Shown here in pieces: positions 17,058 through 61,742 of a DNA stretch of 64,000 bases. The notes beneath the pieces are model-generated. The model ran no database searches. It was not told where the DNA came from and saw only the letters and a program-made list of their open reading frames with translations. A program made the translations under genes and the position numbers. Every line of letters starts with the position of its first letter. Positions within the stretch are counted from its first letter, which is position 1. The DNA lies in assembly GCF_001688725.2 (NCBI RefSeq), contig NZ_CP015401.2:3100001-3164000 (forward strand), in the 5' to 3' direction. This DNA is from Bacteroides caecimuris. Lineage in GTDB: Bacteria; Bacteroidota; Bacteroidia; Bacteroidales; Bacteroidaceae.

Positions 17058-17162
17058 TTTTCACCACAGAGAACACTAAGGAAACAGAGGTTACAGTCAT
17101 CTCTGAATTAGGATTTTGAAGCCTTTGTCTTCTCTGTGTCCTTTGTGTCCTCTGTGGTGAAA
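17058..17162. repeat. Inverted pair of the TTCACCACAGAG dispersed repeat
   Basis: Left arm 17058-17090 starts TTTTCACCACAGAG. Right arm 17122-17162 is its imperfect reverse complement, ending CTCTGTGGTGAAAT. The pair lies between convergent genes and could fold as a terminator for both. Single copies of the same motif occur at 19651, 21491 and 59868. Confidence 0.65.
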
Positions 17163-21490: not shown

Positions 21491-21522
21491 ATTTCACCAC
21501 AGAGGCTACAGAGGTCACAGAG
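21491..21522 (+). repeat. TTCACCACAGAGG dispersed repeat, single copy
   Basis: ATTTCACCACAGAGG followed by degenerate ACAGAGG words (CTACAGAGGTCACAGAG). It lies in the intergenic region between divergent ruvA and ddh. Same family as 17058-17162, 19651-19664 and 59868-59901. Confidence 0.55.
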
Positions 21523-22678: not shown

Positions 22679-24718
22679 ATGAGAAAAGTATTCATTCTCT
22701 GCGCATTTCTATTGCAATACCTGTTGCCTGCCTACCCACAACAAGCCACAACAGTCACCATAGAACCCAATCTGAAATACGGAAAACCTTCTAAAGAAGA
22801 ACTATCTCTCAGTTCTTATCCCCCGGATACCACAGCCACAGCCATTTATCTATTCCATCAGGGACAAAGTGATTTCATCTACCACGATGGTTTCCAACTG
22901 GTCACCGAGCACTGGGTACGCATCAAAATTTTAAAACCACAAGGAGTGTCCTATGCCAATGTTTCCGTTCCTTACTACTCTCCTACCGATAAAGATGAAG
23001 GACAAGAAAGAGCCAGTGAAATAGAAGGCTGCTCCTACAACATGGAAAATGGAAAATGTATCAAAACACCCATGAAGCGAGAATCCATTTCTTTTGAGCG
23101 AATCAACAACCTGTATAAAATGCTAAAATTCTCTCTGCCTGCCGTCAAAGAGGGGACTATCATCGAATATCACTACAAACTCTACTCCGACTATTTTTCA
23201 CATATCGACAACTGGATGATGCAGGAGGAACTTCCTATGCTCTACAACCAATACAAAATCACAATCCCTCATGTGTTCATCTACAACATTGAACTCCGAG
23301 GAAAAGATTACATACAAATAAAGCAAAAAGGCTCCTCCATTCACGCCACGGAACGTGATGGGTCCAGTGCAGGTGGAGTCAGCAAAGACTTCACCGTTTC
23401 TGCACAAGAAACAATCTTTACTTCACGCAACCTTCCGGCTATCCGGCAGGACGAATCCTATTGCTGGTGCCCGGAAGACTATAAAATACAAGTCAGTTTC
23501 GACCTGCAAGGAACCCAATTCAGCCCCAATGAATACAAGCCATACAGCCAGAAATGGGAAGATGTAGATCATCAACTGCTAAAACCAGAAAATACACAGT
23601 TCGGCAAATATCTCTCGCTCACCAACCCTTTCCGTCCCGAAACCAAACAAGCCTACAACAGCGAAATGAATTTCGAGAAGAAAATCATCTGCGCTTTCCA
23701 GATACTCAAAAAGAAAATGGCCTGGAACGGACGGTATCAACTCTACAGTAAAGAACTTGAAAAGGTGATCAAAAAAGGAAGCGGCAGTAATGCCGATCTC
23801 AATTTTATCCTTATCAGCATCCTGAAAGACTTCGGACTGGAAGCCTATCCGGTGGTTATGAGCCGACGTTCATCAGGCATACTGCCCTACAACTTTCCTT
23901 CCCTTCAAAAACTAAATACATTCATCGTCGCCGTCTACGACATAACCAAACAGAAATATGTATTTTTAGACAGCTCCATGGCTATACCTGCCCTCAATAT
24001 ATTGCCACTCGACTTAGCTGTCAACAAAGCACGCATACTATCCCCCAAAGAGAAAGAAGAAAAGAAATGGGTAAACGTGATGGCTCTTTCCGACAATAAA
24101 AGTTTTATGAAGATTGACGCCCGAATAGAGGGAAACCAGGTGAAAGGACATCGAAGCACGGTTCTTTACGGGCAGGAAGCCATCAAATATCAGACAAATG
24201 AGAAGCATAAGCAAGACAGCCTCGTTTCGAATCCTGAAAGCAACGGCGATCAGAAAGAAAAACTCACTGTCACCAACCTGAAAGTGAAAAAACAAGAGAA
24301 TAACTATGCACTGATAGAAGAAGAATTCGACTTCGTCCTGCAAGCCGACCGGACGGACGATCACCTTTATATTAATCCGATGATCTTTCCGCAATTGAAA
24401 AACAATCCATTTATCCAGACGGAACGGGTACTTCCCATCGAATTCCCCTATCCGTACAAGTTCACGATGCTGTCTACGCTGACTCTCCCCGATGGCTACG
24501 AAGTGGAGGAGCTGCCTCAATCACAAACCATCCGGTCAGAAGAAAACGGATTACAATGTAAATATATGATCCAACAACAGGGAAATACAATCCTGCTCAA
24601 TTATGTATTCCACCTGAAAAGATACATATTCCTTTCCGAACAATACAAACAACTACAGGAACTCTGGACCAAAGTGATCGAAAAAAATAATTCACTAATC
24701 GTACTCAAGAAAATATAA
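22679..24718 (+). CDS. DUF3857 / transglutaminase-like exported protein, probably inactive
   Basis: 679 aa from ATG at 22679 (the frame is open from 22559 but the promoter lies at 22646). The signal peptide ends near AYPQQ. A DUF3857 domain spans about residues 50-300. The transglutaminase-like core follows (about 330-480), but the usual GxGDCKD motif reads KKGSGSNADLNF and the usual NHxxV reads LNTFIVAV. The nucleophile Cys and the His are therefore missing. A beta-rich C-terminal domain completes the fold. It lies 18 bp upstream of a family member with an intact site, so the two may act as a pair in the periplasm. Confidence 0.8.
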   Translation: MRKVFILCAFLLQYLLPAYPQQATTVTIEPNLKYGKPSKEELSLSSYPPDTTATAIYLFHQGQSDFIYHDGFQLVTEHWVRIKILKPQGVSYANVSVPYYSPTDKDEGQERASEIEGCSYNMENGKCIKTPMKRESISFERINNLYKMLKFSLPAVKEGTIIEYHYKLYSDYFSHIDNWMMQEELPMLYNQYKITIPHVFIYNIELRGKDYIQIKQKGSSIHATERDGSSAGGVSKDFTVSAQETIFTSRNLPAIRQDESYCWCPEDYKIQVSFDLQGTQFSPNEYKPYSQKWEDVDHQLLKPENTQFGKYLSLTNPFRPETKQAYNSEMNFEKKIICAFQILKKKMAWNGRYQLYSKELEKVIKKGSGSNADLNFILISILKDFGLEAYPVVMSRRSSGILPYNFPSLQKLNTFIVAVYDITKQKYVFLDSSMAIPALNILPLDLAVNKARILSPKEKEEKKWVNVMALSDNKSFMKIDARIEGNQVKGHRSTVLYGQEAIKYQTNEKHKQDSLVSNPESNGDQKEKLTVTNLKVKKQENNYALIEEEFDFVLQADRTDDHLYINPMIFPQLKNNPFIQTERVLPIEFPYPYKFTMLSTLTLPDGYEVEELPQSQTIRSEENGLQCKYMIQQQGNTILLNYVFHLKRYIFLSEQYKQLQELWTKVIEKNNSLIVLKKI

Positions 24719-27386: not shown

Positions 27387-27401
27387 GGAACGGCAGGTAA
27401 C

Positions 27402-27467
27402 AAAAAAAGGCTATCTATCCCAGACAGCCAATCTTTGTTAACCTTAAATCTAATACTATGAAAAACA
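27402..27467 (-). ncRNA. Candidate small RNA, about 65 nt
   Basis: On the minus strand a perfect Bacteroides promoter (27473-27503) is followed about 40 nt later by an intrinsic terminator: stem GGCTGTC / GATAGCC (27409-27429, one G-U pair), then seven T (27402-27408). The RNA would begin near 27466 with GTGTTTTTCATAG and contain the segment TTAGATTTAAGGTTAAC before the hairpin. No ORF of useful size lies on that strand. I believe similar segments recur in Bacteroides intergenic regions, but that is from memory. Confidence 0.6.
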
Positions 27468-27472
27468 CAGTA

Positions 27473-27503
27473 CAAAGATACGGACTTTCCGATTATCTCC
27501 AAA
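27473..27503 (-). promoter_or_regulatory. Complete -33/-7 promoter of the candidate small RNA
   Basis: Minus strand TTTG (27503-27500), exactly 19 nt, then TATCTTTG (27480-27473). With the promoter at 11878-11907 it is one of the two best matches to the Bacteroides consensus in the window. Confidence 0.7.
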
Positions 27504-39300: not shown

Positions 39301-39432
39301 CAAAGTCCGATGGCAAAAGTGATTTTAGGAGGGTTATTAACGTCTACTTTTTTAAACGGTTTTATCGTTCCGATTGTTTATCTGATGATGCATCGGAAAA
39401 AAGCTGTAGCGCGTGATGTTTTTCCCCGGTGA
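36322..39432 (+). CDS. Heavy-metal efflux RND pump, CzcA/CusA family
   Basis: 1036 aa, the expected length for an HME-type RND pump. Twelve transmembrane helices in the usual 1+5, 1+5 layout around two large periplasmic loops. N-terminal entry YSLHNRLVVVCATILLLIAG; DVFPDLNAPTVVIMTEA matches the first porter loop. The TM4 proton-relay segment GSLVDDAIVDVENVYKRL carries three Asp and one Glu. It is driven by the proton gradient and exports metal ions from periplasm or cytoplasm. The stop codon (39430-39432) lies inside the first unit of the 22-bp tandem array. Metal specificity cannot be read from sequence alone. Confidence 0.92.
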   Translation: MLNKIIHYSLHNRLVVVCATILLLIAGTYTAMHTEVDVFPDLNAPTVVIMTEANGMAAEEVEQLVTFPVETAVNGATGVRRVRSSSTNGFSVVWVEFDWGTDIYLARQIVSEKLAVVSESLPVNVGKPTLGPQSSILGEMLIVGLTADSTSMLDLRTIADWTIRPRLLSTGGVAQVAVLGGDIKEYQIQLDPERMRHYGISMGEVMAVTQDMNLNANGGVLYEFGNEYIVRGVLSTSKTEQLGKAVVKTVNNFPVTLEDIADVTIGPKAPKLGTASERGKSAVLMTITKQPATSTLELTDKLEASLKDLQKNLPPDVKVSTDIFRQSRFIESSIGNVKKSLFEGGIFVVIVLFLFLANVRTTLISLVTLPLSLLVSILTLHYMGLTINTMSLGGMAIAIGSLVDDAIVDVENVYKRLRENRQKAEAERLSTLEVVFNASKEVRMPILNSTLIIVVSFVPLFFLSGMEGRMLVPLGVAFIVALFASTVVALTLTPVLCSYLLGSNKTNKELKEAPLARWMKGIYEKALTWVLAHKRVTLGGTIALFVVALGVFFTLGRSFLPSFNEGSFTINISSLPGISLEESNKMGHRAEELLMTIPEIQTVARKTGRAELDEHALGVNVSEIEAPFELKDRSRSELVADVREKLGTITGANIEIGQPISHRIDAMLSGTKANIAIKLFGDDLNKMFSLGNQIKEAISDIPGVADLNVEQQIERPQLKIQPKREMLAKFGITLPEFSEYVNVALAGKVISQVYEQGKSFDLIVKVKDDARDEIEKIRNLMVDTNDGRKVPLNYVAEVVSAMGPNTINRENVKRKIVISANVADRDLRSVVNDIQKRIDTSVQLPEGYHIEYGGQFESEQAASRTLALTSFISIVVIFLLLYNEFRSVKESGVILLNLPLALIGGVFALVITTGEVSIPAIIGFISLFGIATRNGMLLISHYNHLQKEEGLNAYDSVLRGSLDRLNPILMTALSSALALIPLALGGDLPGNEIQSPMAKVILGGLLTSTFLNGFIVPIVYLMMHRKKAVARDVFPR

Positions 39433-39537
39433 TGAAACAAGTGTTTCTCAGTGATGAAACAAGTGTTTCCCAGTGATGAAACAAGTGTTTCCCAGTGATG
39501 AAACAAGTATTTCCCGGTAATGAAACAAATAGATGCC
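39428..39537 (+). repeat. Tandem array of five 22-bp units at the end of the RND pump gene
   Basis: Units begin at 39428, 39450, 39472, 39494 and 39516. Units 2 and 3 are identical; 1 and 4 differ from them by two and one bases; 5 is degenerate. The core is GTGATGAAACAAGTGTTT, which contains the small dyad GAAAC-AAGT-GTTTC. The pump's stop codon is inside unit 1, and the preceding GTGATGTTTTTCCC in the coding sequence looks like a further partial unit. Confidence 0.9.
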
Positions 39538-58754: not shown

Positions 58755-58786
58755 CCGCGTCAAACTAATTAATGAGAGATTGTTAT

Positions 58787-59767
58787 ATGGGAACAGTTAA
58801 GTGTGTCGGAATTTTGACCTCCGGAGGTGATGCTCCGGGAATGAACGCTGCTATACGTGCCGTGACACGTGCAGCTATCTACAATGGATTGCAAGTCAAA
58901 GGTATATACAGAGGCTATAAAGGTCTGGTCACAGGTGAAATCAAAGAATTCAGGAGTCAGAATGTGAGTAACATCATCCAACTGGGTGGAACTATCTTGA
59001 AAACAGCCCGCTGCAAGGAGTTCACCACTCCTGAAGGTCGCCAATTGGCTTATGATAATATGAAAAAAGAAGGCATTGATGCCTTGGTTGTCATTGGTGG
59101 AGACGGTTCGCTGACAGGTGCACGCATCTTTGCACAGGAATTTGATATTCCGTGTATCGGACTGCCGGGAACCATTGATAATGACCTTTACGGTACAGAC
59201 ACTACCATCGGATATGACACTGCATTAAATACGATATTGGACGCTGTGGATAAAATACGTGACACGGCCACTTCACACGAGCGTTTGTTCTTTGTTGAAG
59301 TGATGGGACGTGACGCCGGTTTCCTTGCACTGAACGGAGCGATCGCTTCGGGAGCGGAAGCTGCTATTATTCCGGAATTCAGTACGGAAGTCGACCAGCT
59401 GGAAGAGTTTATCAAGAATGGATTCCGTAAATCAAAAAACAGTAGTATTGTATTGGTAGCCGAAAGCGAACTGACCGGAGGAGCCATGCATTATGCCGAA
59501 CGTGTGAAAAACGAATACCCGCAATACGATGTACGTGTGACGATCTTAGGTCACTTGCAACGTGGCGGTAGCCCGACTGCCCACGACCGTATCCTGGCAA
59601 GCCGCCTCGGTGCTGCTGCTATCGACGCTATTATGGAAGATCAACGTAACGTAATGATCGGTATCGAACATGATGAAATCGTTTACGTACCGTTCAGCAA
59701 GGCTATCAAGAATGACAAACCGATCAAGAGAGATCTTGTCACTGTATTGAAAGAGCTTTCAATCTAA
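58787..59767 (+). CDS. pfkA: ATP-dependent 6-phosphofructokinase
   Basis: 326 aa from ATG 58787 ([14 protein letters not shown]); a further in-frame ATG at 58772 adds five residues. Motifs: [18 protein letters not shown] (ATP site), [12 protein letters not shown] (the GGDGS rather than GGEDT form fits ATP rather than pyrophosphate use), [14 protein letters not shown] (catalytic Asp) and [12 protein letters not shown]. Committed step of glycolysis. It ends in a strong terminator; the 850-bp region beyond it is the most unusual in the window. Confidence 0.95.
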
Positions 59768-59867: not shown

Positions 59868-59901
59868 TTTTCACCACAGAGGACACGGAGGACACAAAGG
59901 T
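59868..59901 (+). repeat. TTCACCACAGAGG dispersed repeat, single copy
   Basis: TTTTCACCACAGAGGACACG then GAGGACACAAAGG, directly after the pfkA terminator. Fourth locus of the family in the window. Confidence 0.6.
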
Positions 59902-60000
59902 GAACTTTGTTCATGACTATACTGGAATGAATGAGATTTTGTTTTCAATTACTGATTTGCATAAGTATAACATGAACTTTTGATTCATAAGTTCCACCCG

Positions 60001-60100
60001 TTTCACCTTATAGCTGAAACATCGATGAATAAGGAGATAGCGGGTGAAAGCGTAGGAAAAAAACAGGTGAAGTCTTCCATTATCGCTTTCACCTTTTGAA
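60001..60100. repeat. Left arm of a 100-bp imperfect inverted repeat
   Basis: Reverse complement of 60404-60503 with roughly 75 percent identity and no gaps; the longest exact blocks are CGATGAATAAGG and ATAGCGGGTGAAAGCG. It contains GGTGAA words spaced 22 bp apart (60043 and 60065). Confidence 0.8.
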
Positions 60101-60115
60101 TTTATTTATACCGAT

Positions 60116-60397
60116 TGCTGGACATATATAGCCATCGTGATAGACATATATAGCCACCATGCTGAATATATAGATGCAATACGGTGAGTATATAGATGCA
60201 ATCTGTTGAATCTATAGACGTACCAATTCAAGTATTAACAGATGAGAACCAAGGTATTAACACCTGACGACTAGGCTATTAACATCTGACAGTTCATCTA
60301 TTAATATCTGACAATGGATTTGCTATAAGCATATTTTCATTAGCTATAAGGATATCCGGATTAGCTATAATGATATTGGTTTTAGCTCAAAGGATAT
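60116..60397 (+). repeat. Contiguous array of 13 degenerate units in three blocks
   Basis: Block A: five 22-bp units starting 60116, 60138, 60160, 60182, 60204 (core GAnATATATAGnnnCA). Block B: four 22-bp units starting 60226, 60248, 60270, 60292 (core TATTAACAnCTGAC). Block C: four 21-bp units starting 60314, 60335, 60356, 60377 (core TTAGCTATAAGGATAT). The blocks follow each other with no spacer. No ORF, promoter or terminator is apparent. Confidence 0.85.
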
Positions 60398-60403
60398 TTT
60401 GAA

Positions 60404-60503
60404 AAAACAAGGTGAAACCGATAATGTTCTGTTTCACCTGATTTCACCCCTCGCTTTCACCCGCTATAGCCTTATTCATCGGCATTTCAGGAATCAGGTG
60501 AAA
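60404..60503. repeat. Right arm of the 100-bp imperfect inverted repeat
   Basis: Pairs with 60001-60100. Contains TTTCACC and GGTGAAA words, the same vocabulary as the left arm. Confidence 0.8.
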
Positions 60504-60614
60504 GCGATGAATGGCAATAATCTTATAGTGGCATTGATGATACTTTATTTATAAAGAAAGAGGCAAGTTACGCAGTATTCCGCTATCGAATGAGTCAGAA
60601 CTGCACAGTTTAGC

Positions 60615-61742
60615 TCATTTTTGTACCGTTTTGAGTTTTTTTATCCATAAATAATATCCAGTCAACGGCAATGCAGCCCCAATCAAAGCAGCAATAAAGG
60701 CAAGTATGCGGGTAAACATTCCTCCCCAGTTACCGACATGTATAGAATAAATCCAACCACGAATCTTTCCCGACTTGTCTTGATGTTGGTAAAGACTTGT
60801 TTCTGTAAATTCACCATTATCCGTATTGAAAGAATAACGGTCAGATGCCCGCTGGTTCCCAAAACGGTTGAAAGACACGCTTGCCGTACCAGAAGAAATA
60901 CTGATTTGCTTATACTCCGGATTCTGACGGCTTAGTTTATCATAAACCTCCTGCCAATAAGCGAATGGTTTCTTTTTCTGATGAGATGCCGATTTGGTAC
61001 CACCGTTTTGAACATCACTTTTCTGTTCATGTCCTTGGGCGACACGTTGCTGTACTTCTACCCCGAAGATCTTATAGAAAGCCATCCGATACCACGGAAA
61101 AGACCAGGTCAACCCCGTCAGTGCCATAGCCAACAGAAAGATCAGAGCATACATTCCACCTGCCACATGCAAGTCATACCAAAACCTTCGCCATCCTTTA
61201 GTTGCTGTTATCTTCAGGCTATTCTTCAATGCTTTACGTGTACGCGGCCACCAAATGACAACTCCCGAAATCAGAACGAATACAAGTAAAAGCGTACTGA
61301 CACCTACAATCATCTTGCCCCAAAAGATCCCTTCATTTCCCGGATTCATACTATCCAGCAGCCAGCGATGCATTCGGAACATAAACATAAAGAAGCCGCT
61401 ACGCTCGCTTTTTCCTTTTACTTCACCCGTATACTGGTCTACATACAAAGATGCACGGCGTGGTTTGGAAAGACTAACCTGATACGCACGTCCGGGATCA
61501 GAAGATATGCTCACACCGGTCACTGATACACTGTCAGGCAATGTCGTCGCTACTTTTTCAAGCAGTTTATCCATAGGTAGAGAAGATTCCTTTACCGTTT
61601 CCACGTAGTAAAGGTCGGGTCGAGACCACTCATTCACCTCGTTTTCGAACACCAGCATGGCACCGGAGAAACAGATTAGAGTTATTACCAGCCCGAAAGG
61701 GACGGAAAGCCACAAATGTATCTTTCTGAATATTTTTTTCAT
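60615..61742 (-). CDS. xusC: PepSY-domain inner-membrane protein, XusC-like
   Basis: 375 aa from the ATG at 61742 (MKKIFRKIHLWLSVPFG); a longer frame starts at 61775. Four transmembrane helices: about 8-33 (LWLSVPFGLVITLICFSGAMLVF), 147-172, 199-222 and 343-367, with two periplasmic PepSY-like segments between. In Bacteroides this gene type accompanies DUF4374 and TonB-receptor genes in the xenosiderophore (Xus) locus, where it is thought to act in iron release at the inner membrane. Family membership is from known locus layout; iron role here is inferred. Confidence 0.8.
   Translation of the reverse strand: MKKIFRKIHLWLSVPFGLVITLICFSGAMLVFENEVNEWSRPDLYYVETVKESSLPMDKLLEKVATTLPDSVSVTGVSISSDPGRAYQVSLSKPRRASLYVDQYTGEVKGKSERSGFFMFMFRMHRWLLDSMNPGNEGIFWGKMIVGVSTLLLVFVLISGVVIWWPRTRKALKNSLKITATKGWRRFWYDLHVAGGMYALIFLLAMALTGLTWSFPWYRMAFYKIFGVEVQQRVAQGHEQKSDVQNGGTKSASHQKKKPFAYWQEVYDKLSRQNPEYKQISISSGTASVSFNRFGNQRASDRYSFNTDNGEFTETSLYQHQDKSGKIRGWIYSIHVGNWGGMFTRILAFIAALIGAALPLTGYYLWIKKLKTVQK

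Follow-up and report, generated by a model that had tools for sequence, protein, structure and literature searches.

Organization of the region between pfkA and the PepSY_TM gene

The window analysed here is a stretch of 64 000 nucleotides from the genome of Bacteroides caecimuris. It includes a gene for 6-phosphofructokinase (pfkA, PF00365; positions 58772..59767, forward strand) and a gene for a PepSY_TM membrane protein (PF03929; 60615..61775, reverse strand), whose 3' ends both face a repetitive element lying between them. Two inverted arms of 95 nt, the left one at 60001..60095 (forward strand, including the sequence GATGAATAAGGAGATAGCGGGTGAAA) and the right one at 60409..60503 (reverse strand), are 78 per cent complementary (0.779 when compared ungapped). 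They bracket three array blocks on the forward strand: block A (60116..60225), with five units of 22 bp; block B (60232..60319), with four units of 22 bp and the core TATTAACATCTGAC; and block C (60320..60403), with four units of 21 bp and the core TAGCTATAAGGATAT. Block A is made up of two sub-seeds, GACATATATAGCC followed by ATATATAGATGC, and is separated from block B by a remainder of 6 bp.

Self-identity at the lag of one unit is 0.68 for block A, 0.73 for block B and 0.70 for block C, values reached by none of the 5000 Markov-1 resamples per block at any lag from 15 to 30. No mutual relation between the three blocks was detectable in either orientation: in column permutations of whole blocks, fractions of 0.34–0.88 reached the observed score, and two sub-block tests gave 0.115 and 0.417. 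Within block A, units 1–2 are related to the last three units (permutation fraction 0.021). A scheme in which the blocks are inverted halves of one ancestral array was dropped, since the permutation tests give it no support. A first-pass annotation of this DNA had described three unrelated blocks of five, four and four units (22, 22 and 21 bp long, respectively) between inverted arms. The arms were placed correctly to within 5 nt, and the resamples and permutations bear out the units and the lack of a detectable relation between blocks; the two sub-seeds of block A, the homology past the arms and the presence of multiple copies go beyond that description.

Compared with a relative, G021, the whole insert spans 59919..60614 (no strand assigned), the G021 flanks matching up to 59918 and resuming at 60615. 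Other copies share varying parts of about 59911–60636, so that homology between copies extends past the arms. The copy at the pfkA site contains no open reading frame of 80 or more amino acids, and a loose Bacteroides promoter pattern does not occur in the element.

Dispersed copies and host range

With a 581-base query (59960–60540), the element was found at at least seven places in its own genome: the pfkA site, four nearly full-length copies (88–93%), one interrupted copy (91% over 397 bp) and one diverged copy (75%). Because the scoring covered at most 10 of the 45 first-look candidates, seven is a lower bound. The arm motif, allowing up to three mismatches, occurs at 13 sites in the whole genome, compared with none for the reversed control; 12 of these sites fall within the seven known places, and the remaining one has three mismatches. 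One copy (L026, at about 2058817) is cut off within block C and is followed by other sequence.

The query has matches in 25 of the 99 genomes of the genus sample. Seven of them, the genome studied here and G009, G012, G021, G058, G085 and G090, carry long copies; the other 18 have short matches only, mostly to the array. Among the candidates scored, there was no match in 71 genomes from 15 other genera of the same family, in 58 order-sample genomes from other families or in 60 further genomes of the phylum sample. Bacteroides is the only genus of the samples examined in which the element was found. One copy is carried by a plasmid record of B. finegoldii (83% over the whole query), and two unannotated records from a phage collection match the element in part.

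The flanks of the copies are unlike one another. By BLAST, the left ends lie mostly at 59911–59938 (two at 59987) and the right ends at 60509–60562 or 60613–60636. Copy ends thus differ, and no target duplication was recognised among them by eye; nor was a clean terminal repeat found among the copies, the arms sitting inside variable outer ends. No autonomous partner, mobiliser or binding protein was found. Two pairs of terminal repeats in the G021 family, 3.4 and 5.7 kb long, were considered as an autonomous partner and rejected: they look like copies interrupted by putative IS3- and IS110-like genes (the Pfam run covered the first pair only). Genes of both kinds were seen between the terminal repeats of array-carrying elements at the G021 loci L352 and L353.

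The pfkA 3' region in related species

The pfkA 3' region was checked in 31 of the 80 pfkA loci. B. acidifaciens carries the element at the same pfkA site (97.6%), so that absence from all close relatives, the outcome that the first-pass annotation had set against its own proposal, is not what is observed. No match to the element was found in 28 of the 31 regions, two of which hold fewer than 300 bases of the region, and 2 of the 31 have unread bases there. Among the 28 is B. heparinolyticus, with a different, palindromic 22-bp array at the pfkA 3' region.

G021, in which the flanks are 93–96% identical, has a 539-bp element at the same intergenic site. It follows the same plan, an array of 22-bp units, identified by eye, being enclosed by inverted terminal repeats of 97 bp that are 96% identical, and BLAST finds no similarity between it and the element of the window. 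Elements like it, of 539 and about 514 bp, are also present elsewhere in G021 and in G085.

Variation between copies

Twenty-four fetched copies were aligned to the window copy over 59990–60525. The substitution rate against the window copy is 0.114 in the array and 0.113 in the arms, and this equal divergence gives no sign of added constraint on the array. Sixteen copies are diverged by no more than about 15%; of their 15 array indels, 13 are of −22, with one of −21 and one of +19, and their eight arm indels comprise seven of −1 and one of +25. The copies thus differ by whole units. All 13 gaps of 22 lie in block A, where they occupy three positions, and some of the copies are orthologues, so the underlying events are few; one of them may have been a gain on the lineage leading to the window copy. 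In the remaining eight copies, which are more diverged, many array gaps have other lengths, partly alignment noise.

At another locus, an orthologous array read by eye consists of four units in B. timonensis, B. stercorirosoris and B. oleiciplenus; its core and spacing are constant, and its 9-nt spacers differ among the three species. There, B. cellulosilyticus has one unit and is exactly 66 bp shorter, and two further species have none.

A 22-bp period in mostly unrelated arrays

Tandem arrays were collected from 2.35 Mb of sequence, consisting of the window, 800 kb of spaced stretches of four genomes and 80 pfkA loci from Bacteroides and near kin. Among arrays of at least 2.3 copies, 63 have a period of 22 bp, 11 of 21 bp and 13 of 23 bp, with one each at 20 and 24 bp. 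The pfkA loci being orthologous, the intergenic arrays were clustered by BLAST. The 22-bp period accounts for 29 of the 70 non-redundant clusters (21 bp, four; 23 bp, five; 20 and 24 bp, one each); four clusters each have periods of 11 and 13 bp, two each 10 and 12 bp, and none 33 bp. A period of about 22 bp is thus common to arrays with mostly unrelated seeds across the sampled genomes.

In the spaced stretches alone, 22-bp arrays make up 7 of 15 in the genome studied here and 3 of 9, 2 of 3 and 3 of 9 in the others, and arrays of period 21–23 occur at 17–33 per Mb in the four genomes. Such arrays hardly arise in controls: ten order-2 Markov replicates of a 400-kb sample gave one array of period 21–23 in total. 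Equally good periodicity in shuffled sequence, which the first-pass annotation had also raised, was therefore hardly seen. Recurrence of 9-mers at distances of 12–45 bp gives the same picture. At 128–269 per Mb, 22 bp leads all other distances in each of the four genomes (0–10 at 23 bp and 33–80 at 21 bp), with recurrence at 17 and 26 bp approaching the 22-bp value in one of them.

Beyond these genomes, the taxonomic reach of the period was sampled only thinly. Across 17 further families of the Bacteroidales, with about 20 kb from each and three additional stretches below 1.3 kb (two of them excluded from the count), arrays of all copy numbers include six at 23 bp, two at 22, one at 21 and three at 20. 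Five of these families, sampled at 80–100 kb each, gave three arrays at 21–23 bp, none at 22, and three other genera of the family to which Bacteroides belongs (80 kb in all) gave none at 21–23. In 160 kb from the same class there are three arrays at 21 bp and one each at 22 and 23, and in 220 kb from other classes three at 21 and one at 22; in the latter, 22 bp is also the top 9-mer bin (82 per Mb), with the one 22-bp array given by TRF. In 50 kb of Escherichia coli there is one array of period 21.

A decaying MITE subject to ordinary minisatellite slippage, with a period handed down from a few ancestral arrays whose sequences have since drifted too far to be recognised, would agree with the whole-unit indels and with the equal substitution rates of array and arms; several array families are, moreover, dispersed copies of one another. 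Against it stand the 29 clusters at 22 bp, which have no BLAST relation (BLAST could miss very old common descent), and the finding that species differ in the array present at the pfkA 3' region. The earlier argument that slippage of one seed fails to explain unrelated seeds with one period withstands this comparison and applies across many loci. We regard an origin of the period by slippage and descent as rather unlikely.

The first-pass annotation had also proposed a dedicated process that copies DNA in steps of 21–22 bp. A copying activity, or mutational ruler, that directly makes such duplications would account for the sharp period among arrays with unrelated seeds, and one array does carry an additional unit that is an exact 22-bp duplicate. 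A ruler also predicts a peak at 22 bp among two-copy repeats, and this is indeed the commonest period when two-copy intergenic repeats are clustered alone (9 of 47; 20, 21 and 24 bp, four each; 23 bp, one). The two-copy peak is nevertheless weaker than that of the multi-unit arrays (29 of 70; Fisher p = 0.015), in a comparison where TRF is less powerful for two-copy repeats. Some two-copy repeats may be eroded arrays: on joint clustering, which merges them with related arrays, 4 of 36 remain at 22 bp, and the multi-unit arrays then have 28 of 64. In open reading frames from a simple greedy caller (those containing arrays are probably spurious in some cases), 22 bp is found in 9 of 41 multi-unit clusters and in 2 of 46 two-copy clusters, though the reading frame selects against 22. 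The proposal of a copying process is weakened by these counts, and we consider it unlikely. Retention or amplification of multi-unit arrays is preferred to it because the 22-bp peak is sharper in them, by a modest margin.

Position and structure of the arrays

By genomic setting, 33 of 87 arrays have co-oriented neighbouring genes, 18 convergent and 13 divergent ones; 19 lie within called open reading frames and four at contig ends. The orientation of genes around intergenic arrays is near background, neither promoters nor gene ends are clearly preferred, and a regulatory position was not retained. Long inverted arms belong to a minority, 5 of 51 arrays exceeding the 99% null where 0.5 would be expected. 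Core-versus-spacer clustering is significant over 33 arrays taken together (Fisher p about 1e-6) but individually in only 7 of 33 at p ≤ 0.05, and some of the arrays are orthologues. By eye, some arrays (L152, L154, L146, L158, L160 and L162) finish in one inverted unit that forms a terminator-like hairpin.

A further dispersed family, consisting of four palindromic 22-bp units in 90 bp, has many copies in G072, G042, G056 and G086, and fewer and weaker matches in G046. Together with the families of the pfkA site and of G021, this makes at least three dispersed families that carry 22-bp arrays, and similarity between them was not detected. Within the window, a stand-alone 22-bp array of 4.7 units (CCCAGTGATGAAACAAGTGTTT) lies at 39425–39528, at the 3' end of an open reading frame; it has two weak matches only (72–74%) elsewhere in the genome.

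The element might function as a folded strand, either as a structured RNA or as hairpin-forming DNA. Folded as single-stranded DNA, it has a z-score of −9.7, and an unrelated 93-bp family reaches −8.1. The fold score largely follows from the inverted arms, and the element has no Rfam match above the gathering score, the window containing only matches to FopS and to a tRNA. In the 93-bp family (64 units from 16 distinct copies), changes at paired positions are mostly one-sided: pair 8–14 is AT in 38 units, GT in 13, AC in 13 and GC in none, and two-sided changes are rare (for example, 2 of 64 at pair 3–19 and one at pair 2–20). Compensatory pairing in this second family was therefore discarded as rare, and a function as a folded strand seems improbable.

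REP, BIME and REPIN sequences are dispersed intergenic palindromic units, often clustered, hit by IS elements and associated with RAYT transposases. The arrays resemble them as dispersed intergenic palindromic units, a third of the unit consensi having palindromic cores (stem of at least 5; 22 of 64 compared with 7.0 ± 2.4 in letter shuffles), and differ in that the Bacteroides units run head to tail at a fixed period of about 22 bp. IS110-like and IS3-like genes also occur within related elements, and IS insertion into REP sequences is reportedly known in other bacteria (PMC1525189). Movement of REP/REPIN-type palindromes by a RAYT (Y1) transposase is nevertheless highly improbable, and membership of this class was rejected as largely refuted, since PF01797 is absent from five of six array-bearing Bacteroides genomes and single in the sixth, that of the window (5 of 14 control genomes match).

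Comparison with known systems

The first-pass annotation knew of no described element with this layout, but BrickBuilt of Porphyromonas gingivalis (PMC4596501) is close, and is the closest known system. BrickBuilt is a dispersed intergenic non-coding MITE with 19 copies in one strain, in which a spacerless minisatellite of 23 nt lies between flanking segments with inverted ends; its units have a conserved and a variable part, and their number differs among copies. Its ends are 12-nt IS5-type terminal inverted repeats (GAGACCTTTGCA). Complete matches to BrickBuilt are reported from P. gingivalis alone, and homologues from P. gulae. The Bacteroides element is likewise multicopy, intergenic and non-coding, with spacerless units of 22, 22 and 21 bp (about two helical turns) that vary in number between copies. 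It differs in having three unrelated unit blocks where BrickBuilt has one, 95-nt imperfect arms instead of 12-nt IS5-type ends, no recognised target duplication, and another genus as host. The best match to GAGACCTTTGCA in 59900–60640, in both orientations, is 8 of 12. Lacking IS5-type ends, the element is not filed as BrickBuilt, although it is built like one, the two being compared by the published description and the end motif. MITE464/PgRS of P. gingivalis, as presented in PMC4596501, is also a MITE with internal tandem repeats, and differs by its 41-nt units and IS5-type ends.

Of the properties of a MITE, the Bacteroides element has a length within 50–1000 bp, no coding capacity, inverted repeats and several copies. 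Among the matches listed in the open-access literature, no title or abstract opening reports 22-bp arrays or such an element in Bacteroides.

Plasmid iterons and the end sites (about 22 bp) of TnsB in Tn7 and MuA in Mu are direct repeats roughly two helical turns in length, to which a single kind of protein binds at adjacent positions. The arrays share the repeat length of these sites, and differ by the many unrelated unit sequences and by having no replicon or transposase gene inside or adjoining the element. Arrays of the CRISPR-like and tandem-guide kinds were also weighed and set aside.

A model for the element and its period

On balance, we think it probable that the element is a dispersed, non-coding, MITE-like Bacteroides repeat of about 0.55–0.7 kb, whose arrays are kept or amplified at about 22 bp by a putative factor binding side by side. 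It consists of inverted arms of about 100 bp around a minisatellite of 12–13 units in three blocks, presumably a captured one, and copies may be spread by a transposase acting in trans. Unit number could alter by slippage or unequal recombination, and blocks could arise when a diverged unit is re-amplified in the same register. Inverted-repeat elements would capture arrays, and multi-unit arrays would be retained or amplified through a factor that occupies adjacent units on one DNA face, at a distance of about two helical turns. The suggestion of the first-pass annotation that the units are sites on one DNA face is thus the favoured reading, though unproven. The helical repeat in vivo is near 11 bp; simple phasing would also allow 33 bp, and the absence of that period from the clusters counts against pure helical phasing.

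A wider proposal, which we put forward tentatively, is that a common trans-acting factor (a protein lattice, perhaps concerned with chromosome packing or mobile-element targeting, which selects or amplifies units spaced by two helical turns) holds the period of the mostly unrelated intergenic arrays, and that MITE-like elements captured such arrays more than once. Should the 22-bp period be set in trans, some factor of Bacteroides would have to measure DNA in steps of two turns, and to do so at many intergenic sites in each genome; such a factor could be sought by pull-down. Read more modestly, the data extend array-carrying MITE-like repeats beyond Porphyromonas by one family, whose unit counts may act as strain markers in gut Bacteroides. 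The sharp 22-bp period of unrelated arrays is the part worth following, and it hints at a factor making or reading DNA in 22-base steps.

Other repeats and features

The Rfam small RNA FopS lies at 27399–27468 of the window (reverse strand), with a match to the Bacteroides-type promoter pattern just upstream (27473–27503); this pattern has two matches in the window, compared with 2.1 expected by chance. A short repeat around CCACAGAGGACACGGAGG, with a step of 9 bp, occurs at 17122–17156, 21497–21522, 22830–22844 (a fragment of 6-bp period only) and 59875–59900. A match to it adjoins the unrelated same-site element of G021 (L305), and another was seen by eye at L356. In the outer flanks of L034, L356 and L364, a palindromic repeat around TTCATTTCCGTACGGAAATGAA recurs, by eye, in steps of about 20–21 bp; it flanks two element families externally, in inverted orientation.
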